Part shown: one piece after another, positions 10,396 to 60,815 of the stretch | Position numbering within the stretch: the stretch's first letter is position 1 | How the letters are laid out: each line of letters starts with the position of its first letter | Assembly (NCBI RefSeq): GCF_032884065.1 | Contig: NC_088867.1 | Span: forward strand, 27,136,232 to 27,200,231 | Direction of reading: 5' to 3' | DNA length: 64,000 nucleotides | Origin: Artemia franciscana | Taxonomy: Eukaryota > Arthropoda > Branchiopoda > Anostraca > Artemiidae | Notes under the pieces: model-generated | The model's input: only the letters and a program-made list of their open reading frames with translations | What the model was told of the DNA's origin: nothing | The model's database searches: none | Position numbers and translations under genes: made by a program

Positions 10396-10503
10396 AAAGG
10401 GATTCGTTCAAGTTGTTTTTTAATTAAAACTATGGGGGATGAACACTGACAATACTGAACTTATGTGATGTGAAATGGCCAAAGCATAATAGAAACAACT
10501 TTC

Positions 10504-11398
10504 CCTCCGGGAGCCTTTCTCAACGGGAAAAAAAAAAACAAAAAAAAAAAACAAAAAGGGAGAAAATTACAACAATACACAGCAGAATTTAAAAAATAGG
10601 CTACAGCAACACAAATATGCGATAGATTGCTCGCTAAGACAAAATAAAAAACCTGATACTTTTGAATCCGCTATAGCTGGTCACGTGTATAATTTTCCTC
10701 ATCATAGTATTTTATTTGATCAGACAAAAATTATTGATAAGTCTGTAGGACTTTTACAAAGTTTCAGAGAAATTATAGAAATAAAAAAGATTATCTATGG
10801 GGGTATTAGTATCAATAGAGATGAGGGGGAATTTAAAATAAATTCAATTTATAATAGTTTAATTAAAGACCAGTCAAAAACTTCAATGAGTATTGGTTTG
10901 CATAATTGTCCTGAAACAAGTAATAACCTTGCGAACGGAGGTCAAAGCATGGTAAATGCTGTAAGAAGTCAACGGACGGCAGCTAAAATAGCAAATGAAA
11001 AAATCCATTCAATTTATAATTCATAATTGTGTTTCATTAACCTGTAAGATTTTGATTGGATTTGGGGGTTGGGTGACCTCTTTTTCGTATTGTTACAAGT
11101 ATTTATATTTTTCATTTTTGATAGATCCCCATTTATACAGCGATTGTGGCAGAGGAAAGTGCCAATAGAAACAATTATTGCAGTTTTTTCTAAAGTTACA
11201 GTCAAGTGCGGGAGTGTTTGTTTTAAAAATGTGAGTTCTTGTTTCTTTTATGTTTGATTGTTTATATTTTTAGTTTGGTTTAGTTGTCGTGGCATTTTTT
11301 TAAAATGTCTTAAAAATAGTCTTAAATTGTTGTAATTTTCTCCCTTTTTGTTTTTTTTTTTTGTTTTTTTTTTTCCCGTTGAGAAAGGCTCCCGGAGG
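10504..11398 (+). mobile_element. Penelope-like element 3' fragment with perfect 72-bp terminal inverted repeats
   Basis: 10504-10575 is the exact reverse complement of 11327-11398 over 72 nt, including the lengths of two homopolymer runs (11 and 12). Inside is plus-strand coding for the C-terminal part of a PLE GIY-YIG region. PLEs are known to carry terminal repeats in direct or inverted orientation, often derived from a 5'-truncated second copy. Perfect identity of A/T runs suggests a recent origin or recent repair against each other. Sequence beyond 11398 (gtggggccgaaatattcgg and on) looks like continuing PLE 3' sequence present on one side only. Confidence 0.75.
10583..11026 (+). pseudogene. 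PLE GIY-YIG region, C-terminal part
   Basis: The frame opens near 10583 with QNLKNRLQQHKYAIDC, continues through a SAIAGH-like step and HHSILFDQTKIIDK, then LLQSFREIIEIKKI and ISINRDEGEFKINS. This order (RL..H..AI, H.I.F/W....I, R...E...I, N.D.G) matches the end of the GIY-YIG endonuclease of PLEs, which nicks the target DNA. The domain start and the reverse transcriptase are absent, so it is a 5'-truncated piece. The open frame ends at 11026. The last ~45 codons have no recognised motif. Confidence 0.7.
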
Positions 11399-11430: not shown

Positions 11431-11604
11431 TTGTTAGTTAAAGTGTAGTTTTTATTTTATTTTGTTGTCACTGCTTTATTTAAAAAAATTAAACCCGTTT
11501 TTTCTTCAATTATTTGTTTCGTAAATGGAAAAGCAGTGTGGTCTAAGAAATTATTTGGACCTTTAAGTCCAGTAAAACTATAAAAAAAAAGCCAGAAATC
11601 GAGA

Positions 11605-12285
11605 TATGAACTACAGAAATGTTTTTGGCTGCAAGTTTTGAGACGAGTTCACTTAATAACTCGAAATCACTCGTACAGAAATATTCCAATTTTATGGAAA
11701 AGTGGGAGGGTAATCTCTAATTTCGGTTTCTGCGCTATTTTCTGGATTTAAAGGTCGTTCCCTATTAATTCAAGCCCGGGGTGAACTAACATAGCATCAG
11801 AATTGGAAAATTCCATCATTAGTACCCATTACCACTCAAAGCGAGGTAAGAGGGCGATGGAAAATTGAAATCTTAGCTTGTGCAGCTTTTGCACACAAAT
11901 GAACACCTAAATGCTCTGAAAAAATTGCTTAATAACATGTCTCAAATCGCTTGAAAGCACCCATGTAGAAATACCCCTTTTTCAGGTAAAAGATGGGAAA
12001 ATGTCGAATTTTAATTTGTGCAATATTTTTTGGATTAAAAGGTCGGTAATTTCAGTTCAGGGACAAAATGACACCAGAAAAAAGAATTCCCTTACCTAGT
12101 AATTCATTTCCACCCTAAGCGGAGGCAGAAGGAGTAAAAAATTATTATATGTTTTAATTTGAACAGCATTTAACTGGAATTTCGTCCTCAAGAAATCAAA
12201 TCTGAACTGTGGATTCTTCTCTTTTATTCTCAACCTGATTTTGTCACGAGTCCCCCCCCCTTGACAAATATCCCCTCTCCTTCAA
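11605..12285. repeat. Left arm of a ~4-kb inverted-repeat unit
   Basis: Matches the reverse complement of about 14955-15635 in several blocks, such as aatttctgcaatattttytggat, ggaaaattccatca and caaatctgaac. It contains two tandem, diverged ~270-bp versions of the same sequence (about 11605-11865 and 11870-12150). Divergence is moderate, so the unit is old. Confidence 0.6.
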
Positions 12286-12780
12286 TTTATTTCCAGCGCA
12301 CAGTGACTGCTACCTCAACTTCAAATCCCGCACAAATATAGACTGCGTCATCTGATGTCATCTTAAAAGCAAACAATGGATTATGATCAATATTCTTGCT
12401 GGTAAGTCAATTTTGAAAATATTAGACGCATTCCAAACCGAATAGGATATGCGTGGGTGATGCGGTTAGACATATTTAAATAAGAGCTCATTTTCAATGA
12501 TATGATAAAGATGGATGTTTCATTCTTTTAAGCAAAGGCATCTAGTTTTTGATATTGGCAGTGATTAACCAAAAAAATCTATTTTTTTTCAACTGAAAGT
12601 AAGCCATTATATGAAAAACAAACGCCCAGAAGTTATTCCGTATATGAGCGAGGGCCGTCCCTTCCTCAACCCTTGTCCTTTGCACTAAAGTTTTAAAGGT
12701 CTTTGAGAATACTTCTCATTCAAATCCTACTTTTCTAAGGATAAGCCTACAGTCAATTGATTTACTTCACTATTATTTTA
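12285..12780. other. Interior of inverted-repeat unit, no gene recognised
   Basis: Lies between the left arm and the pseudogene. Around 12640-12700 there is a tatgagcgagggccgtcccttcctcaacc block related in style to the cctcgctcttt repeats near 34.5-35.2 kb. No coding frame is supported. Confidence 0.4.
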
Positions 12781-14740
12781 ACGCCTCTATACTGTGGCGT
12801 CAACAAATGGTTTGCATCTAATCGATACGCTAAAATACGAGGCATAAACATCCCCAACTGCCGTATTCGAGTCTCATGAAGTCATTTGCCGGCGGATAAG
12901 GCTGTGCTTGCCGCTTGTATACGGAAGCAGCACAAACCTGAGGTTCAACTAATGCCAACACAAACATGCCACTATTTCTAGGATGACGGTTGTCCACTTC
13001 ATTCGGTACGATATGGCACTTTAACCACAAAGGGAGAGGTAGCTTTTTCTTACGTGGCCTTTGCACAGGAGTATTCCACATTAGCTGACGTCATTTTTGA
13101 TGGCTATGCAAGTAAGCCGACCATCAAAGATCCCGCCCATCGGAAGCGAACAAAAGCAAAAATGTGTCCAGCCTTCAGATCTACTTCAACCACAAAACTT
13201 GCTTGGAAGAAAGCAGACTTTCTCAACAACTCAGACAATCAGTTGAACATCCTAAAACTGATAGCTGGAAAAACGTGGAAGCCGGGTGTCAAGTACAAGG
13301 AGTCAAAGGCGATGCAGCTGTTTTAGTGCAAAAACCGGACTTGCTTCAGCCAAAAAGAGGGAGACCAGTTTGATTGGAAATGATACCAACTTGTTGGTTT
13401 TCAATATGCAAAATCCGAGCAGACACCTCTTTATTTCCAGACTCAAGTTCCTGATGACCCTGTAAAGAACCTGACAGAACGGAATTTAAAGAGGGAGTTA
13501 CCATCAGAGGTTACAATGAATGAAGTATTTTTAACTTACGAACGGGTGATCGGATCTTAATGAAATTTGATATTTAGAAGGATATCGTGTCTCAGAGCTC
13601 TTATTTTCAATCCCGACCGGATCCGGTGACATTGGGGGGAGTTGGGAGCGGGGACCTAAAATTTTGGAAAACGCTTAGAGTGGAGGGGATCGGGATGAAA
13701 CTTGGTGGGAAAAGTAAGCACAAGTCCTAGATACGTGATTGACATAACCGGAACGGATCCGCACTCTTTGGGGGAGTTGGGGGGATGAGGATTAATTCTG
13801 AAAAATCAGATAAAATTAGATATTTTTAGCTTACGAAGGAGTGATCAGATTTTAATGAAATTTTATATTTATAAGGACCTCGTAACTCAGATCTCTTATT
13901 TTGAATCCCGACAGGATCCAGTGTCATTGGGGGGACCAGAAATCTTGGAAATGGCTTAAAGTGGAGGGATCGGGATGAAACTTGGTGGAAAAACAAAGCA
14001 CAAGTCCTAGATACGTGATTGACATAACCGGAACGGATCCGCTCTCTTTGGGGGGAGGATTAATTCTGAAGAATTAGAAAAAACGAAGTATTTTTAACTT
14101 ACGAGGGAGTGATCGGATCTTAATGAAATTTCATACTTAGAAGGACCTTGTAACTCAAAGTCACTGTTATTGGTCTACGCCTTTTCAGGATATGAACTAC
14201 ATCGCGAATAATTGGTGTTGGCAAAGCTTTAGTATTGAAAACCATAGCTGATGCCATGTTTTTGAAGCCAGTTAGATGTTTTACTGCTCTTCAGCGAATA
14301 AGGAAGAACTAATTGCAGCAGGCGACCAGACACTTCAACACTTGTAAAGAGCTAGATCTGACGAATCCTTAACTGAACTCCAATACTGTCTGTTCATGTT
14401 GAAAGTAGCCATTGTAGCTAGTTTTGCCCACCCTGAACACTTACCACCCACGCCTGCTGATGCAAACTAAAGTACCACTACCTGCGTGTTTATTTTCAAG
14501 TGATGACATGGTTATGCTCAGCAATAGTTCTAGTACCTGAAGACTAGAGCTGGAAACTTCCGTCAAACATTTTTTATACCCATAATGACTGATATACTGC
14601 CTGCTTCTGAAAGCTATCTGACACTGATTCACTGCGGCTGTAAAGGTGACTGCGATAGCCTTCGATACGCTTGCACCACTATTGCTTGTAGCCAGTACCA
14701 TGGTACAAGCTACCTCAACGTTTCTCTGGATCAATATGAT
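12780..14740 (+). pseudogene. Degraded Cys-tailed PIN/XPG-I-like protein family member
   Basis: I recognise the pattern of a large, mostly uncharacterised arthropod protein family. The N-terminal part has LADVIFDGYASKPTIKD followed by AHRKRTKAK (13080-13160), then GNDTNLLVF near 13380, where a GxDTDLLVLL step is usual. After a 640-bp repeat insertion the frame resumes with TTSRIIGVGKALVLK (14205-14250), EELIAAGDQTLQHL and ASFAHPEHLPPTPADAN. The C-terminal region has FIPIMTDILPASESYL, then CGCKGDCDSLRYACTTIACS (about 14630-14690), a Cys-rich tail. Acidic residues around the VFDGY and DTD steps suggest a PIN-like nuclease fold, which is inference. Multiple frameshifts and stops make it non-functional. 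Confidence 0.65.
13524..14162 (-). repeat. Tandem block of repeat family X inside the pseudogene
   Basis: Two full units (about 13524-13815 and 13816-14083) and one partial unit (to 14162), each ~270-290 bp. Each begins with a tttttarcttacgarng-gtgatc block and ends with cataaccggaacggatccg. Relatives occur at 52693-53220 and 59990-60815 in the opposite orientation and at 53978-54306 in this orientation. The block splits the protein frame, so it arrived later. Confidence 0.75.
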
Positions 14741-14954
14741 GACTAATGTGATTAGGCCAAATTTTGTGTTTCATTCAATAGCTTCTTAATCAAAACGAAT
14801 GTTTGGTTGAAGTGTTCCTGTTTGCTCGTTTTCTTTACTTTTCATGTTTTTTACAATGATAACCAGATTTTTCAAATTCAGGAACGAAGTTAAAAATGAC
14901 AATCTTCTGATGTTCTCGTCCACCCCCTCCAGTGGTAAAGGATGGGGGTGAAAA

Positions 14955-15635
14955 AAAGAGTGGAGATCAAGACAGACTTTAAAGAGAAGTTGAAGAAAAT
15001 CTTCTGTTCAGATTTGCGCTCTTTAGCCCTGAAAAAAGGAATAAGCTTCTAGCCACAAATATCGTTGCAAGCAAAATTGCCCACCCCACCTCTGAAGTCA
15101 GGTTGAGATTAACAAAGAGGGCAAACATTATTACATAGTTGTGGTCACTGGCGTGAAATTGCATAGAAGCGTCGTTAAAATCAAAAGTAGGCCAATAGCA
15201 AAAGGGTCCTTTCACTCCACTCTGATCTTGCTTAAGGTGGACAAGGACTAGTAAATGATGGAATTTTTCAATTCTAACGTCACCTGCTGACCCTCCACAC
15301 TTGATATAGAGGAAGCAACCTTTCAGTCCACCAAATACTGCCATAAATGAGATTCTGATTTTTCAGCTCTTTCTGACCTTGCTGCATCTCTCTCTCTGAG
15401 CATGTAACTGATGGGGATACTGATGGAATTTTCCATTTTAGATGTCATTATTGTTCTCCCTGGACTTAAGATATTATAAAACGACATTTCAATCCAGAAA
15501 ATATTGCAGAAATTAAAATTTGACATTTGTTTGCTGAAAAAAGGGTTATTTCTGAACGGGCGATTTCAAATGATTTTGGACATGTTACCAAGCGGATTTC
15601 TATGAACATTTTGGTGCCAAAAACATATCTGTTGA
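14955..15635. repeat. Right arm of the ~4-kb inverted-repeat unit
   Basis: Reverse-complement counterpart of 11605-12285. Minus-strand frames here (14979-15344 and 15323-15526) are carried by the arm, show no domain and are not conserved as frames in the left arm, so I do not call them genes. Confidence 0.6.
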
Positions 15636-15639
15636 TCAA

Positions 15640-18060
15640 ATGCCGGGTGAAAACCGGATTTTTACTTGACTATTCGTCAATTTAAAGGACAAACTTTGGA
15701 TTTTGTTATCATACCTGAAATCAATTTTCTTGATCTAAAAGTTTCCACGTCGGGCCCACGAGATCCTCACCGGAACTATGTCTCTATACAGGATGCGTGG
15801 GGAACACCTGGCATAGCCTAGTTAGTATATCACTGCCTAATCTATTAATGCTGAAGCTATGGATGAAGATAACGTAACTCAGTTATGCTATGTGTTGCTA
15901 CAACAGATATACCGTATCTTAATTTGAAATTAGCAATGACGAAGAAGAAAACTTTCCTGTGGTTTGACGTTAAAATATAGGCATTAGCACAAAGAAGTCA
16001 CACCTTCTTGTTTTCCATATTGACAATAACTGTCCTACATTCTGACTAGAGTCCTACACAAACATTAGTTAAGTGTCCTTGAATTTTATCTATTTGCTTA
16101 GCAAAAATATAACACAAGAAATATAACACTTTATTAATACTCTGACAGCACTACCAAACTACAAAGAATTATGTACAGTGGATCTATATAAAACTAATCC
16201 AATATAAAAATGTATTCGGTAAGAATAAACAAAGTGACTGTTTTATTAAATCAAAGAAGAAAGCACATTAAGATAAACTAGGTTCTATCTGTGAATCAGA
16301 AAGGAAACGGTTGACAATTGTAAACCTTACGCGTAGGTGCCAAAGCACAAAAAAAGTGGTTGGAAGAGTGTCTGAAATGGCAAACATGTGGACTGATTCT
16401 GAGAGAGTTTGTCCCTACAAGTTCTGTACATAGGTATGGCTGTAAACAGAACATAAAATAATGTAACTCAATCTATGAAAGAACGTTAGAATTTTAATTG
16501 CAGTAGAAGACTATATGCTACAGCACATTTTTTCTAAAGAACGGTTTTAGCGTTCGTTGTTTATATAATAGAAATGATTAATATTCTGAATTATTTAGAC
16601 TTGGTTCTCTGATCTGGAATTTCAAACCTGAATTTAGCTAAAGTATTTGGTATGTTTATTTTAAAATATGATATCACTCAAAATAATTTGTCTACGTTTG
16701 AAGTTGTCACTTTTTAAAGTGTCTGCAATACATATTACAAGCCTGGTATGTTGATACTGAAAGCAATTTTATGGTGTCTAAAATTGCCGGTACTATCATT
16801 TTCGTATTTCTGATGGAAAAAGTCGACATTCAAAGTTGCTTAATCTATGTTCTTAAGACCCTTGAATTAAAAATAAATTGTGACACCTTTTGCAGTCGTA
16901 TTTCTGGGGGGAAGCCCCATTTTTGGGGCGTGTTTTAGATCATATTCCTCTCTTATGCAAGATTCCCGAATGCCCACTACCTCTCCTCCAGTCAACTGAC
17001 CCTTGCAGGTCCTTTTACCCCAATCAGACCCTCCATCAATATTTCTAACAAATATTCTTCCCCAACACACATCCGCTAGCAACTCTAATTCTCTCCTAAT
17101 TACCAAGACGCTGCCAGCTGGTTTGGGCCTTCATCTTTCACTTGCAAAAATAAACCCAACCCCTCTCCTCCCTACTTTCCTTTTCCAGCACTATCTGGAA
17201 ACTGTAGTTTAGAAGAGCCCTCCACCCCAAAGATAGCTTGGTTTCTACCAAACCAGCATAATACTAGAATAATATTCATAGCCATCGCCAGCCACCTCTC
17301 CCCCTTTCATCTTGGTATCTAAATTTTACCTATAGTTTTACAAGTGAGACAAGAAATAAAACAATTCAAAAGCCAGAAAGAAGGAATAAAATAAGCCTTA
17401 AGAAGGACCTTCATTAAAACAGAAATAGAAGGCTGAATCCCATTTTAGTGAGCACGACAACGACAGTGATGATATACCCTAATCCTTTAGGGCATTTATT
17501 AAAGACTTTTAGGCTAAAGGATATTCATTAGAAGATAAAAACAAAGCTGAGCTCAATTCTCATAAGGACGATGATGACAATGATAATGATGACCCTCGAG
17601 AACCTTCATCAAGTGTCCCCAGTAGGTGGAATTAGGTGCCTAAAGTAGAGGGCACCTACTAAAGGACGATGCGGTTAGTATTTACTCTTTTCTCCCCTAG
17701 CCAATTCGTTTAGAAGGGGTAGTCTCAAAAGCCTAAGAGTAGGTTTGTTTGATTAAAAATTCAAAGTTCTAATGCCATTTTAAAAATTCAAAAGGGATTA
17801 GATTACAAGAAAATGTGATTTTTCACAAACAAACTGCACTTTTCATGATACGGAGGTAAATTCCAAGAAGAAATAGTAACGTGCTATTTACTGGGCTCAC
17901 AGCTAAGGTAGAAATAAAGTAAAACAACAAAAAAATAGAATCTACCCCCTCCTCCCTTCTAAAAATTGAAATAATTAGAGTACATCTTGAAATATTAAAC
18001 TACTACTAGTGTAAAATGAGATAAGGCAAGTCAAATTCAGTTAAAAAATAAACTATCCTT
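15640..18060. other. No gene seen; small diverged duplication at 17398-17600
   Basis: AT-rich sequence without a supported gene. About 17398-17490 and 17513-17600 are diverged copies of a ~90-bp unit containing gacaaygayrrtgatgay-like runs. The C-rich stretch 16980-17210 is open on both strands (69 and 79 codons), but neither frame shows a domain or splice context that decides between them. Confidence 0.45.
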
Positions 18061-18295: not shown

Positions 18296-19480
18296 TTACG
18301 ACAATAGCCAGAGTTTTAAGGTAAAATAGCAAAATCCACCTTCAACAAATGACTCCATAAAATGTTCATAGCTTACTCCTAAAGGAATTGTTCTCATAAT
18401 TTGATTTCTACAAAACGTAAAAGTAAAACATTCCGATTTAAGATTATTTGATGGGTTTTCATTATGAAATAGTTCAAGTTCGAAACGAAGGCGAACGGGA
18501 TTAAACTGACTTGGGGCTAGTCTTAGTTCTTCATTTGTAATATGCCGATAAATAGCTCCAACAATGAATTGTCGGCAATCAGAAAGACGAATATTTGCAA
18601 ACCACGTCGAGTCAGCAAAGGCAATGTCAATCATACTTTGTTTACCATCTTTTAAGATCTCTGGAATATTACCGTAAGTGCAAAATACAGTTCGGTGAGG
18701 AAAAGTTGGCCAATTGGTTGGTAACATTCCAGAGCAGTACATCTTTGCCAAATTGACGATTATATCCAGCCATTTACTATGGTGGCCTTGAATGAACTTG
18801 GATTCGATGACTTGCGTAACTAGTTCATCTCCGCGTAATTTATGCAAGTCAAAGTAGTCGAGGACTTTGGCAACGTATTCATTTCTCTTTTCTTTGTAAG
18901 AAAGCCATTTCATAACAGCTTGAAAAACTTCAGTCTCAAGAAAAGTGAACGATTCTTTAAGGTTCTGAAGAATAAGCAGAATGTGTTCAATGTCCAAGAG
19001 CAAAAATTCTTCTGTTACTTCTTCTGTAAACAAATTTCTCATTACTTGTAATGAAGCAAAAATCAATACTTGCAAGTTACACTGTTTAGCTACAATCATC
19101 ATTGATATACAATTTTCCACACATAGCTTCTGTTTCATGAAGGTTACACAGTTATCCATGAGACACTGAATCTGGTACATATCAGCAAATTGAAGGAGAG
19201 TGCACACATTTTCAGAATCCAAATGAATTTCTTGAGCATACAAGAAAGACAATATATTTGAAAAAACTTCAGCATCAATTTCCTTTAGCTCAATTAAACC
19301 CAGTTTGCTTTCTCTGTAATGATCTTGTAGCATTGCAGCAAATACAGGACTTCTTGCAGCAAGGATACAACGATGTGCATAAAATATTCTGTTTCCAATA
19401 TGAATGCTAACATCACAAAATTGATTATTCTTCCTTTGTTCTTGCAAAGCTCGAAGCAGACCGGAACTTGATAAGTTCAT
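18296..19480 (-). CDS. BTB-BACK domain protein without kelch repeats
   Basis: An intact 394-residue frame and the clearest host gene here. BTB domain at about residues 15-117 (FCDVSIHIGN, FYAHRCILAARSPVF, ELKEIDAEVFSNILSFLYAQ); BACK domain at about 118-230 (ENCISMMIVAKQCNL, EVFQAVMKWLSYKEKR). BTB-BACK proteins usually serve as Cullin-3 ubiquitin-ligase adaptors, with BTB for dimerisation and Cul3 contact. The C-terminal ~165 residues, where kelch repeats would sit, lack the kelch double-Gly pattern and are of a type I do not recognise, perhaps a beta-rich substrate-binding domain. The start has a good context (accaaaATGaac). An acceptor-like ttgtcag lies just upstream, so a 5' untranslated exon is possible. 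No internal intron is seen, so an old retrocopy cannot be excluded. Confidence 0.88.
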   Translation of the reverse strand: MNLSSSGLLRALQEQRKNNQFCDVSIHIGNRIFYAHRCILAARSPVFAAMLQDHYRESKLGLIELKEIDAEVFSNILSFLYAQEIHLDSENVCTLLQFADMYQIQCLMDNCVTFMKQKLCVENCISMMIVAKQCNLQVLIFASLQVMRNLFTEEVTEEFLLLDIEHILLILQNLKESFTFLETEVFQAVMKWLSYKEKRNEYVAKVLDYFDLHKLRGDELVTQVIESKFIQGHHSKWLDIIVNLAKMYCSGMLPTNWPTFPHRTVFCTYGNIPEILKDGKQSMIDIAFADSTWFANIRLSDCRQFIVGAIYRHITNEELRLAPSQFNPVRLRFELELFHNENPSNNLKSECFTFTFCRNQIMRTIPLGVSYEHFMESFVEGGFCYFTLKLWLLS

Positions 19481-19499
19481 TTTGGTCTACTGACAATCC

Positions 19500-33969: not shown

Positions 33970-34470
33970 AAGTTACATCTGGGACCCTTAGAGGGGGATC
34001 ACAATTTCAGAGAGGGGACCATTTTATTTGTATATAGCATACCGTAAGTTACAGAAATTCCAGCCTAACTACACACCTCCCCCCTCAATGCTTGGGTATA
34101 GTATTGGTTATAACGGAAAATTGGCTCATTGTGACAGTTTCAACTATTTTATCAGTTCAAGCAGTTCATAATACCAAATAAAACAACAAGTTTTTTTCCT
34201 GACCTGATAGTATGTTTAATCCTTCAGAACGGGGGGGGGGTGTTACCCAAATAAAAATATATCTCTTTTCTTATAATCATTTACTTAAAACAAAATTACA
34301 AGGAAAATGTATTCTATTATTATTTATCTGTGTTTTATTATATATGTTTCTTTCTGACTTCAAACTATTCCTCTGAGTAATACATGTATGACTATTTACA
34401 GAACAATACTCAGCTGATTCACAATGAAAGCTTTTGATTGTTTTAAAAAGCAGAATTGTGGCAAAGAGTC
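33970..34470. other. No gene seen
   Basis: Upstream side of the predicted small secreted-protein gene. AT-rich with a G9 run near 34230. No TATA box that I would defend. Confidence 0.4.
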
Positions 34471-36107
34471 AAACTTTAGCGTAAAGAGCGAGGGATTGCG
34501 GAGGGGACAACGTATTTCATATACGGAGTAATTTCTGTTCGTTTTAAGTTTTAATGTCGCTCCTTACTTTCAGTTAAAAAACTAGTTTTTTTTATTTAAT
34601 TTCTGAACGTTTTTGAATTAATGCATGTTTGGTTTTTGCTCTCCGCACATAAATTATTAAAATGAAATTTTAATATTAATTTTTTTTTACTAAATGGCTT
34701 TCTCTTAGTTGTGATCAGAAGATTTTGAGAAATAAGGGGTGGGGAAGGAAGCCAAGTTGCGTTCCAGTTTTTCGGTTACTTAAAAAGGCAACAAGAACTT
34801 ATAATTTTTAACGAACGTTTTTATTAGTAAAAATTATACGTAACTTAAGAATCAACTTACGTAACAAACTTTTATATTCTTATATTTTTATTATGTATAT
34901 GAGGGGGTTTGTCCCCTCGTTAATACCTCGCTCTTTACACTAAATCTTAAGTTTTGTCCCAATTCTTTAAGAATAACCCCTGAATCAGAAAGGCCGTAGA
35001 ATAAATAGTTTAAATTACTAAAAATACTTTAGCATAAAGAGCGAGGTATTTATCTTCTCCTAAATACCTCGCTCTTTATGCTAAAGTATTTTTAGAACCC
35101 CTCATATGCTTAATAATCTCTGTTCGTTTTAAGTTTTAATGCTACTCCTTAATTTCAATTAAAAAACTTTTTCATGTTTATTTTTTCATTGTTTTTTTTT
35201 TTTTTTTTACAGTAATGCTAGAAAATCCCGCGCCCATTTCATTGAGCTTCTTTTCCTTCATGACATATTCCTCCAAGGAAAGATCCTCCTACATAACCCC
35301 CTCCCCTCAACCCCACCCCAAACCAAAAAAATCCCCCTGAAAACGTCTGAAAGCTTCTTAATAACCATTATTGTATGTAAAGACTGGTCAAAGTTTTAAC
35401 TTGCAGCCTCTCCCCCAGAGACTGTGGAGGGTAAGTCATCCCCAAAGACATAGTTTTTATGGTTTTTGACTATGCGGAACAAAATAGCAATCTCAAAATT
35501 TTGATCCGTTGACTTCGGGAAAAAAATGAGCGTGAGAGGGGGCCTAGGTGCCCTCCAATTTTTTCGGTCACTTAAAAAGGGCACTAGAACTTTTCATTTC
35601 TGTTAGAATGAGCCATCTTGCAACATTCTAGGACCACTTGGTCGATACGATGACCCCTGGGAAAAAAAAAAAAAAAAAAAAAAAAAAACAACAAATAAAC
35701 ACGCACCCGTGATCGGTCGTCTGGCAAAAAATACGAAATTCCACATTTTTGTAGATAGGAGCTTGAAATTTTTGATATAGCGTTCTCTGATACGCTGAAT
35801 GCGATGGTGTGATTTTCGTTAACATTATATGACTTTTAGGGGGTGTTTCCCCCTATTTTCAAAAATAAGGCAAATTTTCTCAGGCTCGTAACTTTTTATG
35901 ACAAAAACTAAATTTGATGAAGCTTATATATTTAAAATCAGCATGAAAATCCGATTCTTTTGATGTATCTTTTAGCATCAAAATTCCGTTTTTTAGAGTT
36001 TTGTTTACTATTTAGCCGGGTCGCTCCTTACTACAGTTCGTTACCACGAACTGTTTGAAATGTTCTTCCAAATTTCGGAAGCCCCTTCTAATTAGGTAAC
36101 TCAGAAT
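34470..36107. repeat. Repeat-rich block with cctcgctcttt family and poly(A/T) runs
   Basis: Holds at least two copies of a family whose core reads gttcgttttaagttttaatg followed by yrctcctta (34540-34570, 35120-35150). Relatives are at 37930-37980, 56055-56100 and 57035-57065. The family's cctcgctctttayrctaaa motif occurs in both orientations. A T run is near 35195-35210 and an A run of about 28 at 35660-35687. Minus-strand frames here are short and repeat-borne. Confidence 0.6.
35018..35095. repeat. Perfect 35-bp hairpin with 8-nt loop
   Basis: 35018-35052 is the exact reverse complement of 35061-35095; the loop is tcttctcc. The arm contains the cctcgctctttatgctaaag motif of the surrounding family, so this looks like two copies fused head to head. 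Perfect pairing suggests recent formation or ongoing conversion between arms. Confidence 0.9.
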
Positions 36108-38232
36108 AGCTTCGGGCTTATCGGAGTAGTTTTCCAAAGAAAATTTTTTAAGCTACTGTGTTAAAACATTAAATAAAAACATGAATTTTTCCGAGGGTGG
36201 GTGGGGGGTTCACATAAACAAAAAAACAACTAATAACGACAAAAATGTGCTTATATCCATTTTTGTTATGTTTTTACGAGTCAGAAAACATTTCGGGGGA
36301 GGGGAGGGGTTCAAACCCCAAAACCTAGCCTGGATTTCAAAACCTAACCCAATTTCAAGAATGTAATTCGAATTAATAATTACAAATATTGATATGCTGG
36401 TACATTTTATTCTAGAAAAAAATTGAAAAGATAAAAATAAGCACCCGAAAAAGGTAAATAAAATCTATTCACAAAAAGAATGTTCCACTGATATTTATTT
36501 GAGCCTAATTGCCAGTTTTAAGCGCATTGATTTTTGGTTTCAGCCATACATTTCAATGGCTGAATGTATTTCTAATGATTTGAATCATACTATTCGCTAT
36601 GCATTGCTTCAAACGTAAAATGCATACTAGGTTTTTTACGACTGCAAGATTTTGGAAAACAAGATTTTAATTACAACCATAACTAAAATAGCGCTGTTAC
36701 TGGGCCTTTTATGCAAGGCTGTTACATCCAAGAAACAGGTGAATTGGGCTGTTACAACCGTTAAACGGAATGTTTCCGAAGATTATACGTCAGCAATTCT
36801 CTTTGCATTGATTGGTGCAAATATCTAAGAGCTATGTCGTTCATTAATATAAGGAAATGAATTCGTTAAAACTTTCCAGTTGTGAAACTTACTTACATCA
36901 AGCAACAACATAATAGATATTAACATGGATCAAAGTTTTGAATTAGAAATATCTTTTTATTGTGACCGTGCGATTTGTAAAGGCCATTACCACGACTTTA
37001 GCAATTCTTATGAGAGAGTAATACAGCAAATTTAGAAACAGTGGAAAATGGAATAGACGAGGATAATTTGGAAGAAATGAGGCGAAGAATCTTGTCTGAA
37101 ATAGAGAGAAATTTACTCAGGGCAGGCTCATCAATTTCTGCAGTGGAAGAGAGTGACCAATATCACAAGAAACAATACAAACAAAGGACACCCTCTCCAT
37201 TCCAAGGAAAGTATCGCAAACGAAGGTTGGATATGGCAGAAAAGGAAGAGGAAGGTCGAAAGAAGAGACACAGAATAGATGGATCTCCCAAAAGGGATAG
37301 CTCACGGTCTTCAAGAAAAAGGAGAGAAGACAGCTATGAGAGAAGAAGAAAATATGAGGCTCCAAAATCTTTCTGGAGGAGACCATAGGTTTTATAACAA
37401 TTTTCTGCTTTAGATGCTGATATGCTTTTTACAGGATTGCAGTTTGGAAAATTCTCGTTTTCTAGATATCAAAATTACTTTTTCCTTAGGCTAGTTTTAA
37501 ATTTTTGTAAGTTAGTTTTATATTATGCTTGTTTTTCTTGAAGATGATCTTTTTGCCTCGAATTTGGATAAATATATAGAGAGAGAAAAAAAACATCTTC
37601 CCAGTTCTTTTTTGTCACAGAAAATGGTAATTTTAGCAAAACCGGGCGACAATGAGTGAAGGTGGCCCCTTCATGAAACCCCTGTCGGCTGAGCAGATAA
37701 TACTCGCTTCAAAGTAAGCGAGGGGGACTTGGGAGCTTGCTAAAACTACCATAATATGAGTGAGTATGTCCCTTCCACAACCTTCAGTCTTTATGTTAAA
37801 ATCTTAATCTTCTTTAGAAATACGTCCATTAAAAATTAAACGGCCCTTCTGTTCCATCAATCTCCTAAAAGCATTGTGACAAAAAGTAAAACAAAAAAGG
37901 AAGATTGAGCAAGGGAGCAGTCCCCCTCATATATAGAATAATTTCTGCTTGTTTTAATTTTTAATACTGCTCCTTACTTTTAAGTCAAAATTTTTTTTTG
38001 AAATTTCTGACCCTTACTTAAATCTTGCAAAGAAGTCCCCTTTCATTCCCCTGGGAATGTTATCCCCATGAAAAACACCCCCCCCACCCAAAAAAACATG
38101 TATATTTCCCAATAACAAATACTATAGCCTATATGAACAATGGGCAAATTACATATCTTACAGCCCTTTCCTCGGGGACTATAGGGGTCAATACCATCTC
38201 CAGAGGCATAGTTAAAGGACCTTTTAACTATA
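36108..38232. repeat. Segmental duplication, copy A, left block
   Basis: Aligns nearly continuously with 54307-56345, with few substitutions and small indels. Starts at the agcttcgggcttatcgg block and ends at gaccttttaacta, where a LINE tail follows in A but not in B. A ~70-bp segment at about 36560-36630 is missing from B. Confidence 0.85.
36925..37388 (+). pseudogene. Frameshifted copy of the 153-codon unknown gene
   Basis: Same gene as the intact one at 55048-55509. The start codon (36925) and first 29 codons are present, but the sequence reads gagagagtaat at about 37012 where the intact copy has gagagtaat. This 2-nt gain shifts the frame into a stop. From the in-frame ATG at 37041 the remaining 115 codons are open again to the same RRP end. 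A shorter product starting there is possible but would lack the Cys/His segment. Confidence 0.7.
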
Positions 38233-38930
38233 ATAATAATAATAATAATTTATTCCAGAAAAAGCCCGTGGGCCATAGGAAAATTACATAACAACAAACA
38301 AACAACAAATTAACTACATTAAATTAATACTATTTAAAGAAAACGCTCCCGATGTGCCGCTGCAATCCTTACAAATCTTGCTATCCTTTTAATACTCAGG
38401 AAATTTGTTTCTTTCATACTATCTAGGATCCATGTCTCATTCAATTTTTCTTTACCATACATCTCTCGCCTCCAATCATTCAATTCGACACATTCACATA
38501 AAAAATGTATTAAACTTTCATCCTGAGATCCACACATAGGACAAGCAATAGATTCTACCTTCTCCCCTTTTCTCCCTTGATACTTTCTTTTCTCCCCAAT
38601 CAAAAATCCATTTCCCCCCCCAATCCAAATAAGCCTTCAAATCCTCTCTACTTAACCCAACCTTTCAAAATACCTCCTCCCCAACTACCCTTTATCTGTC
38701 TATACAATTTTAACGACCCTGAACGATCCAGACTTGCCCACCATATCTGTATTTCTTGGTTCTTCAACCTCTCTTGTACCTCCCTTATTACTATTTCCTC
38801 TATACCCATAATCCCCTTTCCTTCATTCCACCATTCCCCTAATCCGCACTTATCTAAGATATCCTTAATCTCCGCCGGCCATCCTGTTTTACTATTCTGT
38901 CTCAACGCCTCTAAGTATGCTTTTTCAAAA
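38224..38930 (-). mobile_element. 5'-truncated LINE 3' end with (TAA)n-type tail
   Basis: Minus-strand coding for a LINE C-terminus: 38648-38925 contains NSKTGWPAEIKDILDKCGLG, and 38334-38603 contains CPMCGSQDESLIHFLCEC, a zinc knuckle typical after the RT domain. The 3' untranslated end reads cccacgggctttttctggaataaa, then an (att)n tract at 38228-38250. The copy is truncated at its 5' side near 38930, where it meets a plus-strand LINE. Its tail abuts gaccttttaacta, and copy B continues past that point without the insertion. Confidence 0.75.
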
Positions 38931-38934
38931 AGCG

Positions 38935-39881
38935 AATTTTGGGCGAAGGTTGCGCCAAATGATAATTGCCCCCGGCGCATCGGTGCGAAAGCTTTTGCGA
39001 ACAATGTGAAAGATATTCTTGATTTTATTAAGAAACTGGACTCTGAGGAGGTATCAACTCCGATTTATGTGATCAAGTCTCCAACCGAGGTCCCGGTTTT
39101 GCCCGCAGTTGCGTATTCTAGGCTGTCAACAAAGGTGAATCGCGTGGAACAACTACTCAAGGTTGTTGCCACCAAGCTGGATGCTTATGAACTGAATTAC
39201 CCGCAACTGCCGAAACCTGCAATTCCCGACTCGTATGCTACTATTGTTGTGTCGAACCTTCCATCTACCCTTTCGGACCCAATAAAACGAAAAGATCTGA
39301 TAGATCAGATTGATGGACACGAATCAATCACTAGCATTCGCCCTGTTCGTGACAAACTTTTTATCAATATAGATAAGTCAGTTGCTGAAGATTTCCGCTT
39401 ATCGGTGACTAGTGCGTTTACTGGCTCTTCTGCGAAAGTTCTAACCAAGAAGTTTTACAGACTCCTGAAGGGAATCCCGCCTGATTTTGAACTGTCCCAC
39501 CTGATATCGTGCCCTGGTGTTTCTGGTGCCTCTAGGCTAGGGAAATCGCTTGCAGTAAAACTTGAATTCTCTGATGCAACATCAAGAGTCGAAGCATTTA
39601 GATATGGTCTCAAAGTTGGATACGAAATCCTAAGTGTTTATGAGTTCAAAGCGATTCCCCGGTGCTGTAACAATTGCCGATCCCCTGACCATCTCCAGTC
39701 GTCTTGTCCCAGTGTTACACCAAAATGTGTGCGATGTGCCGGTCCTCATGTTTCAGATAGAGACTCGCCTTGCAATTTGTCACCTAAGTGCGCAAACTGT
39801 GGAGGTGATCATGTTTCGTTTAGCCTCACTTGCCCTAAATTGAAAGCAATTGTCAGTCGCAAGTTACCGAAAACAAACTAA
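38935..39881 (+). CDS. LINE ORF1, gag-like with three zinc knuckles (5'-partial)
   Basis: RNA-binding chaperone-type protein of the LINE. The frame is open from 38577, but the part before ~38935 is antisense to the inverted LINE and is not ORF1. LINE-like coding starts at about SEFWAKVAPNDN and continues to 39881. The C-terminus holds three knuckles: CCNNCRSPDHLQSSC, CVRCAGPHVSDRDSPC and CANCGGDHVSFSLTC. The stop codon overlaps the next start as TAATG (39879-39883), which suggests ORF2 is translated by termination-reinitiation. The true N-terminus is missing. Confidence 0.8.
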
Positions 39882-42531
39882 TGTCTGAATTAGTATCACT
39901 CGTGTCCTTCAATATTAATGGGACGAAAAACAAGGACCTGACCATTGATGAACTGTACAGTAAGTTTGACATTGTATGCTTTCAGGAACATCTTTTGACC
40001 GCAACGAGTGTTAATTTCCTGCGCCGTAGTTCCGCCCACTTTGTTTTCACAACAAATGCTAAATCTACTTTTGGAAGGCCTTCAGGGGGTTTAGCATGTA
40101 TTATAAAACAAAAGCTCAGCTTTCTGTCCCCGTTATGCTATTTCTTTGATGAACATTTATTGGCTATAAGACTTGGTAAAACCGTATTGATAAACACCTA
40201 CCTGCCTCACGATGGGAAGAATATGACATCGCTTAATAAATTCTCTAAAGCATGCTCTAGTTTGAAAACTCTCCTTCAAAGTATAAGCGAAAATGGGTAC
40301 GAATTTATTATTATTGGAGATATGAACACTGATGTAAAACGTGATTCCGCTCGTACTGTGAACCTACTTGATTGTCTCCCTGATTACAGAATAATTGCAA
40401 AGGATAAACCCTTCTCGTATGTGCATAATTCCGGCAGCTTATCGGATATTGATCACGTGATTTGTTCCCCGTTCATTACATCTTCAACAGTGCATGTCCA
40501 CGAAGATGAGCAAGATATTGATCACCTTCCTTTATCGCTATGCTTTTCGATTAGAAAAGATAGTACTGACCAGGCTTGTGCTCCTGCCTCTAAATGGTTT
40601 GTGCGGAGTAATTGGAAAAATGTTAATATGCCATTATATATTTCAACCCTGGCCATTCTCCTTGGTTCTTTACGAGTACCTTTTCATCTACTCCAGCTGA
40701 GTGTTAGTCCTACTAAAAGTAATTACGATCTGAATCATTATTACAACCAAATCGTGTGGTGTTTAAAACGCGCTGAGGAGGTTGCTGTCCCTCAGGAGCG
40801 AGTGAGGAAAAGTACAAGGAAACCAACCTGGTCGTGTGACCCTGAGCTGAAAAGTGTGAAAAATAAAGCCAAATTGTGGCTGCGTATATGGGTTGCTAAC
40901 GGTCGACCATTAGCTGGAATGTGTTTGAAATAAAACAAAAAACTAAGCGTGAGTTCAAGAAATGTCTGTGATCGAGCCGTTACAAAGGGTTAGAATATCC
41001 TACCAATAAGAAAGAATGGGACAAAGTGATTAATTCAGCTAATTTAAATAACTCGGCAAATCCTAATTGCCCCATTACGCCTTCTGCATGGTCTGACCAC
41101 TATTCAGTTATATTTTGCAAAGTGAATTATGCAGTGCACGCGCTTTATTCGAAACTGCTTGATTCGGTTCTCCCGCCTTCCCTGACTCAGGCACAAGTTA
41201 TTCCCGTTTCAGTTGACGCTGTAATTGCATCTGTTAAGAAATTGAAATCAAGTTCTCTTGATATTGACGGTATCAGTGCTTGTCATCTAAAAATAAATTG
41301 CCCGTCTTTGTTTTTCCATTTGCAGTTGTTTTTCCAAATGTGCCTTTGTTGTTCCCTCGTTCCTGACAGCTTTTTGTGTGGAACTGTCACTTCTGTACTT
41401 AAACGAGGTAAGACTCCTTTGGATTGTTCTTCTTACAGGCCTATCACGGTTGCTTGTAATTTTAGTAAAATCCTTGAACACATCCTACTTCCTTTCATAA
41501 GTATGAATGCTAATTTCGGGGAGAATCAGTTTGGTTTTCGGTCTGGCATCGGGTGCCAGCACGCTCACCGTGCTCTTGCTTTCCTTCTTAAAGATGCTTC
41601 GGCTAAAGGGTATGGTCTTCATATTTGTGCTCTTGATCTTTCTAAGGCTTTCGATAGTGTTGTACATAGTCAGGCTCTTTACTCTCTTTATAGTCACGGT
41701 ATTAACCTTTCAGTTATTTTTCTTCTAAAGTTTTGGTATAGTAATTCTTATCTTCGAATTAAAACTAATGGTGCCCTTTCATCTTCTAATGTTCTTGTTC
41801 GTCGGGACGTACGGCAGGGTGGAATGTTATCTCCTAGTATTTTCAAATTTTGTATCTCTGGTATTCTTGAGAATATTTCTTCTATGTGTTTTGTTGGTTT
41901 GAGTGATATTTCTTACCTTGCTTATGCTGATGACATTCTTCTAATTAGCCGATCTAAACTCAGTCTATCGCAGATGGTTCATAAAGTTTCTTCTTCTTTT
42001 AATAAAATCGGTCTTTCGCTTAATGTTGATAAATGTGAGTATCTTTCTTTCAATGTTCCCTGTTCTCCTAGGCCTCTAATTTTTCAAAATTTTTCTATCC
42101 CTCATGTAGATTCGATCCGGTGGTTGGGTATTACAATTACAAAAAATCTTAAAACTCTTCGGGAGCGTGCTGTCTGGGATGCTAGAGTGAAAATCCAGAT
42201 TGGTTACTCTAAAATTGTAGCCAATCGAGGGAAATACAATCGTATTGCCCTTGGTAAGCTTTATTCTACTTTTTCCGATCATTCTGTTCTTTACCTTTCT
42301 GGGCTTTACCCTATATTTAAGAAAAAAGATATTAGCGATATTCGATCCTCTTATTTCCGTTTCTGTAAATTTCTTCTCTATCTTCCTCTGTGGTATAAGA
42401 ATCGAAAGATAATCAAAAAGTTCCATCTTCCGAACATTACTGAGAAGCTGACTGATCTACACAAAAAGCTCTCAGAAACGGCGTATCGGCGTTTGTCGCC
42501 TCACCACGGTCTGATCCGTTTGTATGATTAA
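39881..42531 (+). pseudogene. LINE ORF2, endonuclease plus reverse transcriptase (one frameshift)
   Basis: The first 350 codons (39881-40933) are an apurinic-type endonuclease: LVSFNINGTKNKDL, CFQEHLL, FIIIGDMNTD, SDIDHVI and a DHLPLSL end. It nicks target DNA to prime reverse transcription. After a frameshift near 40920 and a stop near 40970, the RT frame is open from 41026 to 42531: SYRPITVACNFSKILE, ALDLSKAFDSV (catalytic Asp), DVRQGGMLSP and AYADDILLIS (catalytic YADD, about residue 300 of that frame). All catalytic motifs are present, so the element died recently. The C-terminus has no RNase H and no obvious knuckle. Confidence 0.85.
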
Positions 42532-52780: not shown

Positions 52781-53220
52781 CGATAGATTGATTTAAAAAA
52801 AAAAATCAGAGGCTTGATGCCGGTCGGGATTTAAAATATGAGCTCTGAGTCACGAGGTCCTTCTAAATATGAAAATTCATTAAGATCTGATCACCCACTC
52901 GTAAATTAAAAATACCTAATTTTTTCTCTCCCTTCAGCCCCCCAGAGGGTTGAATCGGGGAAAACGAAGTTATCAAGTCAATTTGTGCAGCTCCCTGACA
53001 CATCTACCAATTTGCATCGTCCTCGCACGTCCAGAAGCACCAAACTCGCCAAAGTACTGAACACCACCCACTAACTCCACCAAAATAAGAGCGGATCCAT
53101 TTCGGTTACGTCAATCACGTATCTAAGACAATTGCTTATCCTATCCACCAAGTTTCATCCCGATCTCTCCACTCTAAACATTTTCCAAGATTTCTGGTTT
53201 CCCCCTCTAACTCCCATAAA
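52693..53220 (+). repeat. Repeat family X copy
   Basis: Contains agagctcagatggcacttgt, a gatcacccactcgtaa block, ctgacacatctaccaattt and ccaccaagtttcatcccgat, shared in order with 59990-60815. Joins directly to an inverted fragment of the duplication at 53221. Confidence 0.75.
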
Positions 53221-53365
53221 AGGCCCAGTAACAGCGCTATTTTAGTTATGGTTGTAATTAAAATCTTGTTTTCCAAAATCTTACAGTCGTAAAAAACCTA
53301 GTATGCATTTTACGTTTGAAGCAATGCATAGCAAATAGTATGATGCAAATCATTAGAAATACATT
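53221..53365 (-). repeat. Inverted fragment of the segmental duplication
   Basis: Reverse complement of about 36560-36707 in copy A, including the ~70 bp that copy B lacks (ctattcgctatgcattgctt and neighbours). It therefore preserves the longer ancestral version. Confidence 0.85.
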
Positions 53366-53977
53366 CAGCCTGAACTATTTATTCTGGCTGCATACCAACA
53401 AGTTGGTTTTAATCATATGTTTGTTTACATCCTGTGACACATGTGATCTTCTCTCAGCCAAAGATAGAAACACGTTTTCATCGTAATCACGTGTTTTTGT
53501 TTGTCAATGAGTTTATTATTTCCATGTATTCAAATTTATTTTGCATACAAAACACTTTATTTGTCTTGTACTTTAAAGAGGGGTTTATTCCGGATTTTTT
53601 TTTTTATTATAATTATTTTTATGGTAATTTTTAAAAAAATAAAACACAACATTTGAAAAGATTATTTAATTTAAATGACTTAAAAATAATACAATTTATT
53701 TTATGTAGATAGGGTAAATGAACTAGGACACAATGGTCCTATAATGTAGGGAGAGGGCTCATTGTCAAAATTCTGAGATGGCCATTTTGTTAGCATAGTT
53801 GAAAAGTTCAATAACTATGTCTTTGGGTATAACTTCAATCCCCAACAGCCGGGAAAAGGGTATAAGCTTTAAAATGTGCCTATAGTTTACGCATAGCAGT
53901 TGTTATGGGAGGTAAAAGTTTGTTTATTACTAGTTTGTAGCAGATGATACATCCATTAAAACATGAGAAACCATTTT
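53366..53977. other. No gene seen
   Basis: AT-rich sequence. The 66-codon plus frame at 53434-53634 is Phe/Tyr-rich with no recognisable domain. Confidence 0.4.
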
Positions 53978-54306
53978 TATGGCACTTGGTATCTACCAAG
54001 TGACATGTAGCGATCACAAATCCTGTCGGTCTGTCTGTCTTTCTGTCCCGGTTATTCTAGTTTAGTACTTCCAGGTAATCTAGGACGATGAAATTTGGCA
54101 GGCGTATTAGGAACTAGGCCAGATTTAAATCATAAATTGTCGTTTCCCCGATTCCGCCTTCTGGAGGGGGGTGAGTGGGGGGACGGATAAATCGGAAAAA
54201 TTAGAAAAAATGACGTATTCTTAACTTACGAACAGGTGACCGGATCTTAATGAAATTTGATATTTAGATGGAAATCATGTCTCAGAGCTCTTATTTTAAA
54301 TCCCGA
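53978..54306 (-). repeat. Repeat family X copy with terminal hairpin
   Basis: Starts with atggcacttgg and a hairpin, cacttggta-tc-taccaagtg (53983-54002), followed by ctgtctgtctttctg. Ends at aaatcccgacc, where duplication copy B begins. The same end, reversed, closes the family-X insertion at 60815. Confidence 0.75.
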
Positions 54307-56345
54307 CCAGCTTTGGGCTAATCGGAGTAGTTTTTCCAAGAAAATGTTTTAAGCTACTGTGTTAAAACATTAAATAAAAACATGAATTTTTCCGAGGGTG
54401 GGTGGGGGGTTCACACAAACAAAAAAACAACTAATAACGACAAAAATGTGCTTATATCCATTTTTGTTATGTTTTTACGAGTCAGAAAACATTTCGGGGG
54501 AGGGGAGGGGTTCAAACCCCAAAACCTAACCTGGATTTCAAAACCTAACCCAATTTCAAGAATGTAATTCGAATTAATAATTACAAATATTGATATGCTG
54601 GTACATTTTATTCTAGAAAAAAATTAAAAAGATACAAATAAGCACCCAAAAAAGGTAAATAAGTTCTATTCACAAAAAGAATGTTCCACTGATATTTATT
54701 TGAGCCTAATTGCCAGTTTTGAGCGCATTGATTTTTGGTTTCAGCGACTGTTTGGTTTTTACGACTGTAAGATTTTGGAAAACAAGATTTTAATTACAAC
54801 CATAACTAAAATAGCGCTGTTACTGGGCCTTTTATGCAAGGCTGTTACATCCAAGAAACAGCTGAATTGGGCTGTTACAACCGTTAAACGGAATGTTTCC
54901 GAAGACCATACGTCAGCAATTCTCTTTGCATTGATTGGTGCAAATATCTAAGAGCTATGTCGTTCATTAATATAAGGAAATGAAATCGTTAAAACTTTCC
55001 AGTTGTGAAACTTACTTACATCAAGCAACAACATAATAGATATTAACATGGATCAAAGTTTTGAATTAGAAATATCTTTTTATTGTGACTGTGCGATTTG
55101 TAAAGGCCATTACCACGACTTTAGCAATTCTTATGAGAGTAATGCAGCAAATTTAGAAACAGTGGAAAATGGAATAGACGAGGATAATTTGGAAGAAATG
55201 AGGCGAAGAATCCTGGATGAAATGGAGAGAAAATTACTTAGGGCAGGCTCATCAATTTCTGCAGTGGAAGAGAGTGACCAATATCACAAGAAACAATACA
55301 AACAAAGGACACCCTCTCCATTCCAAGGAAGGTATCGCAAACGAAGGTTGGATATGGCAGAAAAGGAAGAGGAAGATCGAAAGAAAAGGCACAGAAAAGA
55401 TGGATTTCCCAACAGGGATAGCTCACGGTCTTCAAGAAATAGGAGAGAAGACAGTTATGAGAGAAGAAGGAAATATGAGGCTCCAAAATCTTTCTGGAGG
55501 AGACCATAGGTTTTATAACAATTTTCTGTTTTAGATGCTGATATGCTTTTACAGGATTACAGTTTGGAAAATTCTCGATTTCTAGATATCAAAATTACTT
55601 TTTCCTTAGGCTAGTTTTAAATTTTTCGTAAGTTAGTTTTATATTATGATTGTTTTTCTTGAAGATGATCTTTTTGCCTCGAATTTGAATATATATATAT
55701 ATATATAGAGAGAAAAAGAACATCTTCCCATTTCGTTTTTGGCACAGAAAATGGTAATTTTAGCAAAACCGGGCGACAATGAGTGAAGGTGGCCCCTTCA
55801 TGAAACCCCTGTCGGCCGAGCAGATAATACTCGCTTCAAAGTAAGCGAGGGGGACTTGGGAGCTGGCTAAAACTACCATAATATGAGTGAATCTGCCCCT
55901 TCCTCAACCTTCAGTCTTTATGTTAAAAATCTTTATCTTCTTTAGAAATACGTCCATTCAAAATTAAACGGCCCTTCTGTTCGATCAATCTCCTAAAAGC
56001 ATTGTGACAAAAAAGAAAGATTGAGCAAGGGAGCAGTCCCCCTCATATATAGATTAATTTCTGCTTGTTTTAATTTTTAATACTGCTCCTTACTTTTAAG
56101 TAAAAAAACTTTTTTTTAATTTCTGACCCTTACTCATATCTTGCCAAAAAATCCCTTTTCATTCCCCTTGGAACGTTTTCCCCTATGAAAAACACCCCAC
56201 CCCACCCCAAAAAAAATGTATATTTCCCAATAACAAATAGTATAGCCTATATGAACAATGGGCAGATTACATATCTTACAGCCCTTTCCTCAGGGATTAC
56301 AGGGGTCAATCCCATCTCAAGAGGCATAGTTAAAGGACCTTTTAA
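54307..56345. repeat. Segmental duplication, copy B, left block
   Basis: Partner of 36108-38232. It continues past the point where copy A has a LINE (ttttaacta then acctccattggg), so it shows that site without the LINE. Confidence 0.85.
55048..55509 (+). CDS. Unknown 153-residue protein, Cys/His N-terminus and Arg/Ser/Glu-rich C-terminus
   Basis: Intact frame starting MDQSFELEISFYCDC. Residues 13-23 (CDCAICKGHYH) form a compact Cys/His cluster that could bind a metal. Residues ~38-65 are acidic and helix-prone (NGIDEDNLEEMRRRI); residues ~85-153 are rich in Arg, Lys, Glu and Ser with SR pairs, ending KSFWRRP. This layout fits a small nuclear or nucleic-acid-associated protein, but I do not recognise a family. 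The start has a favourable aacATGg context. A second copy at 36925-37388 differs by substitutions and a 2-nt frameshift. About 95 nt upstream, a conserved open stretch ends in a TAA in both copies (54818-54951, LCKAVTSKKQ...ALIGANI). The gene may belong to the duplicated unit rather than to a host locus. Confidence 0.5.
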   Translation: MDQSFELEISFYCDCAICKGHYHDFSNSYESNAANLETVENGIDEDNLEEMRRRILDEMERKLLRAGSSISAVEESDQYHKKQYKQRTPSPFQGRYRKRRLDMAEKEEEDRKKRHRKDGFPNRDSSRSSRNRREDSYERRRKYEAPKSFWRRP

Positions 56346-59989: not shown

Positions 59990-60815
59990 AAATCAACAAG
60001 AGCTAAGAGCTCATATGGCACTTGTGACGAGGCAAGAAGAGCTAAGAGCCAAGAGATCATATGGTATGAGATCTAACAAAATTCTATGAATCAATAGATA
60101 CATTTAAAAAGGAATAAGAGGCTTAATGCCGGTCAGGATTTAAAACAAAAGTTCTGAGTCACGATGTCCTTCTAAATATCAAAATTCATTAAGATCCGAT
60201 CACCCACTCGTAAGTTATAAATACCTAATTTTTCCTCTCCCTTTAGCCCCCTAAATAGTCGAATCTGGGAAAACGACTCTATCAAGTCAAATTTTGCAGC
60301 CCCCTGACACGCCTACCAATTTTCATCGTCCTAGCACGTCCAGAAGCACCAAACTCGCCAAACCACTGAACCCCTCCCCCCAACTCCTCCAAAGAGAGCG
60401 AATCCAGTACGACTTTTTCAATCACGCATAAAGGACATTTGTTTATTCTATCCACCAAGCTTCATCCCGATTCCTCCAATCCCAGTGTTTTCCCAAGATT
60501 TCCCCCTCCAACTCCCCCCAATGTCATCAGATCCGGTCGGGATTTAAAAAAAGAGCTCTGAGACACAATATCATTCCAAACATCAAATTTCACTAAGATC
60601 CCATCACCCGCTCATAAGTTAAAAATACTTCATTTTTTCTATTTTTTCCAAATTAACCGCCCCCCCCCCAGATGGTCAAATCTGGGAAACGACTATTTCT
60701 GATTTAATCTGGTCAGGTCCCTGATACGCTTGCCAAATTTCATCGTCCTAGCTTACCTGGAAGTGCCTAAAGTAGCAAAACCGGGACCGACAGACAGACT
60801 GACAATACCAAGTGC
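59990..60815 (+). mobile_element. Repeat family X insertion
   Basis: Copy A reads aaaatcaaaaagcacagg where copy B has ~830 bp between aaaatca and aaaagcacagg, so the insertion is defined against an empty site. The ends carry tatggcacttg near 60014 and caagtgccata near 60810, a terminal inverted repeat. Internally it holds the tandem-type units seen at 13524-14162. No protein domain is recognised, so it is probably non-autonomous. Confidence 0.7.

Follow-up and report, generated by a model that had tools for sequence, protein, structure and literature searches.

In a 64,000-nucleotide stretch of Artemia franciscana DNA (assembly GCF_032884065.1, contig NC_088867.1, positions 27,136,232 to 27,200,231; called the window below, with positions counted from its first letter), a 4108-bp unit at 11565..15672 on the plus strand is very probably a dead copy of an AcademX-type cut-and-paste DNA transposon. 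The copy is degraded, non-autonomous and internally deleted, and about 0.9 kb of it, in two segments, looks like later insertion. Between its inverted arms lies the remnant of a gene for a cysteine-tailed protein, which is most likely the nuclease half of the element's own movement protein, and the kind of element is most likely known already. An initial annotation of the same DNA had suggested that this protein family could be either the cargo or the mobilising enzyme of a terminal inverted repeat (TIR) element; the evidence points to part of the mobilising enzyme and not to cargo, the nuclease being contained in a single frame of 1463 amino acids (aa) in intact relatives.

The association between arms and gene was examined across the genome by searches in which only the best candidates were scored (40 of 201 for the left arm, 40 of 264 for the right arm, 150 of 435 for the protein and 75 of 1706 for the central region of family B, described below), and the linkage is therefore a lower bound. 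At its scored loci the left arm gave at least 69 matches and the right arm at least 57. All 20 protein matches with at least 40% identity to the open piece of the window copy were considered, the window itself among them: 11 have a scored arm no more than 4 kb away, every one arranged and oriented as in the window, where 0.01 would be expected by chance. Two of these, L013 (C13:18447800-18457700) and L014 (C13:18376200-18386100), are near-identical arm and nuclease copies that face opposite ways on one contig, with 72 kb between them; they probably go back to duplication of a segment and not to two insertions, and counting them once gives 10 of 19 independent matches. Approached from the arms, 12 of the 20 loci inspected (the 20 best other loci of 39 from the left-arm search) hold coding remnants, of the nuclease or tail at 11 (L009, L010, L011, L013, L014, L015, L021, L023, L024, L027 and L028) and of the central region at L012. 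This linkage bears out the earlier proposal that the protein is part of a TIR transposon, which explains its copy number, and it rules out a host gene standing beside chance repeats.

Intact relatives show what the complete element looks like. Many of the matches from the protein search are open frames, 400 to 1463 aa long and 30-35% identical, which fall into families A, B and C. Two family-B elements of 5.43 and 5.44 kb (L031, L032) are 99.4% identical and contain one 1463-aa frame each, with no second frame of at least 200 aa within the element. Family A is represented by a 6.5-kb element (L029, L030) whose arms hold tandem subunits, as in the window, and by 3.7-kb deletion forms that keep the nuclease and are 99.5% identical (L033, L034). 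Family C (L038, L043) is built from the same parts and is frameshifted in the one copy examined. The full-length protein begins with Cys clusters at its N terminus; the central region follows, then a flap nuclease of FEN1/XPG type and, last, a tail rich in Cys.

The movement of these elements has left clear marks. Terminal inverted repeats measure 427-564 bp in family A (91-94% alike) and 123 bp in family B (80%). In all five elements that could be judged (L029, L031, L032, L033, L034; L030 was left out of the duplication count, its right end being incomplete), the ends begin with TAGT and are flanked by perfect 3-bp target duplications, namely TAT, TTA, TAC, TTT and TAA, while sliding the ends gave at most 10 of 15 base matches. 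Families A and B have the repeats, duplications and encoded nuclease expected of AcademX. Since most of the 75 scored family-B loci are at least 95% identical, this family probably spread recently. Among those sampled, intact copies are not flanked by the arms of the window copy, an arrangement that the initial annotation had proposed to look for; the intact elements tested have their own terminal repeats and duplications instead. None of 40 sampled matches of families A and C (hand-picked, open, stop-free and at least 400 aa long, with none from B) lay within 4 kb of a scored window-type arm, and none of the 75 scored family-B loci lay within 8 kb of one, which rules out that arrangement among them. 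For one further A-type match, an arm lies at a distance of 5.0 kb, oppositely oriented.

The predicted structure of the Cys-tailed nuclease half shows a flap-nuclease fold: by VIA-align comparison the model is FEN1/XPG-like, which makes the earlier PIN-like label more exact. Pfam searches with the nuclease alignment and with pieces from the window were fruitless, as was a PHROGs search, a PDB sequence search with a window piece was likewise fruitless, and a scan by sequence of viral contigs and prokaryote genome contigs found no relative. In the central region, acidic positions are conserved between families A and B and also in the pieces of family C, in a part of the protein whose model has a predicted local distance difference test score (pLDDT) of only 38.1. 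This region is presumed to be the transposase core, with DDE chemistry, because the protein it belongs to is the sole long one found in an element that has clearly moved.

Turning to the window copy, the motif (T/A)AGTC(C/A)AGTAAAA stands at both of its ends (11565 and 15672). Because this motif is seen again, with a small number of changes, at the termini of further arm copies (for example L010, L016, L020 and L026), the element was delimited at these two positions, about 40 bp further out on each side than the bounds 11605..15635 first proposed; the own end of its relative L010 aligns to 15672. The left arm spans 11565..12362 on the plus strand and the right arm 14903..15672 on the minus strand, with approximate inner edges. 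The inverted pair and the internal duplication of the left arm hold up as first described, and the extent of about 680 bp does not: each arm is about 0.8 kb long and they are piecewise 59-75% alike, with no single simple palindrome of 680 bp. In the best local alignment, which scores 83, 11904-12204 pairs with the right arm in reverse complement (220 of 287 aligned positions identical); 100 shuffles gave at most 24. The two units of the left arm, 11655-11866 and 11945-12143, are 65% alike and each also matches the right arm. By the arm score and the end motif common to its own lineage, the window copy has terminal inverted repeats. The left flank (TTT, 11562..11564) may be a decayed target-site duplication, a weak sign alone, as it matches the right flank (TTC, 15673-15675) at two of three bases.

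The arm lineage also has ends that resemble those of family B over about 130 bp. With 2773 random 130-bp pieces of the window as controls, L020 surpassed all of them in comparison with both B ends, and one end of L016 did so with one B end; for L010 and the other end of L016, one control was equally good. By the same measure, families A and B resemble each other in their ends (0, 0, 0 and 4 controls equally good). Judged from these alignments, window-type arms seem to be a variant, particular to the family, of a single kind of terminal repeat, a likeness that holds for the lineage against family B and not for the window copy alone.

The coding part of the window copy survives as two remnants on the plus strand, both recognised by tblastn to the intact proteins. 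The first (12767..13516, E down to 1e-14) comprises a linker and the first half of the FEN1/XPG-like nuclease and is frameshifted. Its longest open piece, 12982..13323 (plus strand), carries DDG, VIFDGY and KDPAHRKR; the frame changes after it and before DTNLLV (13382..13399, plus strand), a remnant of the motif DTDLLVLL seen intact in relatives. The second (14163..14746) comprises the end of the nuclease, LPPT (14441-14452) and the Cys-rich tail (14633-14689). The degraded gene with a VFDGY-type motif, DT.LLV, LPPT and Cys-rich tail that had been noticed at the outset is read again here, in frameshifted form. A complete transposase is missing from the window copy, which holds only the nuclease half and tail; since the central region is absent and the nuclease half frameshifted, the copy is classed as a non-autonomous derivative.

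How the nuclease-only form arose can be followed in part. In the window, L009, L010, L011 and L013/L014, the first recognisable family-A protein residue behind the left arm falls at 760-813, beyond the central region, with a gap of 0.1 to 0.4 kb between arm and linker. The sequence of the arm-to-nuclease junction is common to L009, L010 and L011 (scores of 74-101, against at most 20 in 100 shuffles), and that deletion form therefore itself multiplied. A junction common to all nuclease-only copies was considered and withdrawn, as it holds for these three only. Two arm-lineage copies, L012 and C7:23386225, keep central-region remnants, each close behind the left arm. Between the window copy and four relatives, differences number 137, 138 and 137 of 545 each at the three codon positions, while between intact families third positions differ the most (0.53-0.61, over 179-191 aligned positions). 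Because differences are even across codon positions, the nuclease-only copies are taken to have decayed freely once they had landed, each about 12% from its source if the divergence is split evenly. In view of the flat codon positions, selection on these copies while they spread was rejected; an earlier count on segments chosen by protein had given a slight third-position excess, biased by that choice.

The simplest account is mobilisation in trans. The window subfamily lost the central region and kept arms and nuclease half, and its copies were most likely moved by the transposase of a full-length relative whose arms were of the same kind. During excision or integration the nuclease may trim strands. 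After landing, the window copy decayed and took in further insertions.

Two such insertions can be located. The segment 13517..14155, a tandem-type repeat with GGATCC sites, is missing from L010, L011, L013, L014 and L021, which align on either side of it. Repeats with GGATCC sites in units of about 290 bp occur at this position, at 52813-54332 and 60129-60670 of the window and at L020, L022 and L023. The other, at about 12508..12763, is a probable insertion that includes a dispersed repeat. In L009, L010 and L011, only about 0.1 kb separates positions matching 12356-12366 and 12764-12811; L021 tracks the window up to 12507 and L013 joins 12415 to 12795, which leaves the edges uncertain. The dispersed repeat itself (12559-12724, about 135-165 bp) matches L010, L012, L013, L019, L020, L023, L025, L027 and window 34441-34605. 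It often forms inverted pairs resembling the two arms of a small foldback element (L012, L013, L019, L020, L025).

Several other features lie in the window. Directly left of the element, an open frame at 10493-11026 (plus strand) resembles by eye the GIY-YIG end of a Penelope-like element, and 73-bp perfect inverted repeats stand beside it at 10504-10576 and 11326-11398. An uninterrupted 396-aa frame at 18299-19486 (minus strand) is BTB-domain-like by eye. Two very similar frames with arginine/serine-rich ends, at 37014-37385 and 55009-55506 (plus strand), are an apparent duplication. Long frames at 38514-42528 (plus strand) resemble, by eye, the zinc-knuckle protein, endonuclease and reverse transcriptase of a retrotransposon lacking long terminal repeats.

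A number of observations weigh against the interpretation of the unit as an AcademX-type derivative. The window flanks agree at two of three bases only and those of L010, judged by eye, do not match. The window's own ends are not significantly like those of the intact families (17-367 controls equally good for B, 24-2029 for A), and the likeness of the lineage to family A is weak, with at least seven controls equally good each time. Nine of the 20 lineage protein copies are without a scored arm nearby. Arms without the gene, named in the initial annotation as potentially contrary evidence, occur at 8 of the 20 inspected arm loci, as is usual for deletion derivatives; an example is the 0.9-kb arm-only element at L016 (4323-5232), with terminal motifs and no gene inside, which recurs with the same flanks at L017 and L018 and is counted once (a weak tail match lies about 1.2 kb outside it). 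A laxer search extends the matches at L009 and L011 into the arm, to residues 624 and 713 of protein P0002, which is taken as over-extension. The window, L013 and L021 share a continuation past the left arm that L009, L010 and L011 are without; either one form changed later or two deletions occurred, and a single deletion event for all copies is not established. The full protein P0001, central region included, has no Pfam match, neither it nor the central region has a PDB match of note, and with a model at pLDDT 38.1 its DDE nature is presumed only. Finally, the Academ placement follows from architecture and duplication length, not from sequence comparison with a named Academ element.

Other explanations must be set against the same evidence. 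The nuclease gene could be cargo of an unrelated TIR element whose transposase lies elsewhere, as might be supposed from the window, L009, L010, L011 and L013/L014, where the arms accompany the nuclease half only. This is very improbable and largely refuted, for in the full-length elements L031 and L032 the nuclease is the C-terminal part of the sole frame of at least 200 aa, and two loci have arm-lineage copies with the central region. It is equally hard to believe that the flap nuclease and Cys tail are the sole mobilising enzyme of a self-mobile window subfamily: full-length helpers of a related family are plentiful, and with flat codon positions nothing indicates that coding was maintained in the short form during its spread, even though that form itself multiplied (the junction common to L009, L010 and L011) and family A has a separate deletion form, also retaining the nuclease, whose copies at two sites are 99.5% identical (L033, L034). 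A gentler version, in which nuclease-only derivatives are a recurrent functional form that arose at least twice (in the arm lineage and in family A), with the nuclease half as a separate helper or repressor, is improbable as well. The neutral decay in the window lineage speaks against it, and the apparent preference may be a search effect, since the two examples came to light through a nuclease probe or next to arms initially inspected for it.

There is finally the unlikely case that these are TIR transposons of some other, perhaps unnamed superfamily in which a transposase and a flap nuclease are likewise joined and the duplications are 3 bp long, working in the same way without being Academ. 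No family model matched the full protein, and the placement builds on architecture and duplication length, which leaves some room for it. The AcademX nuclease is of the XPG type. In Kojima 2023 (PMC10045372), AcademX is given 3- or 4-bp duplications and AcademH 9- or 10-bp ones, tied to the encoded nuclease or helicase, and for bivalves a mean Academ size of 5565 bp is given (PMC10294476); the duplication length, the nuclease and the size of 5.4-6.5 kb found here all fit AcademX. If the AcademX reading holds, a multicopy orphan protein described as PIN-like and Cys-tailed finds its place as the flap nuclease at the C-terminal end of a transposon protein of Academ type. The family is indeed multicopy, as first stated; the wider Academ superfamily has been recorded in arthropods, being listed in whitefly (PMC9143410) and Daphnia (PMC8594854). 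Annotators should mask proteins of this sort as belonging to transposons and not take them for host genes. In this genome the element, which probably moved recently, is present in numerous near-identical copies, of which a good share are open. It offers a tractable system for asking why a transposase carries a flap nuclease and whether the nuclease sets the 3-bp duplication.

Among known systems, the cellular Rad2/XPG enzymes FEN1, EXO1, XPG and GEN1 share only 6-19% identity with the element nuclease, which differs in its fusion to a transposon protein and in the Cys-rich tail behind it. Kolobok target duplications are TTAA. The KolobokP composite-like transposons with a His-Me finger homing endonuclease (PMC9587614) are alike in combining a DDD/E transposase and a nuclease in one element, but the nuclease is of another type and the duplications here are 3 bp of varying sequence. 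AcademH belongs by name to the same superfamily: its description (PMC10045372) gives 9-10 bp duplications and a helicase, whereas 3 bp were found in all five elements here and the Pfam search of P0001 returned no helicase family. The window copy departs from AcademX in being dead, without the central region and equipped with arms of about 0.8 kb that hold internal tandem units. Its intact relatives resemble AcademX as TIR elements of 5.4-6.5 kb with the nuclease in the same protein, 3-bp target duplications and a predicted flap-nuclease fold.
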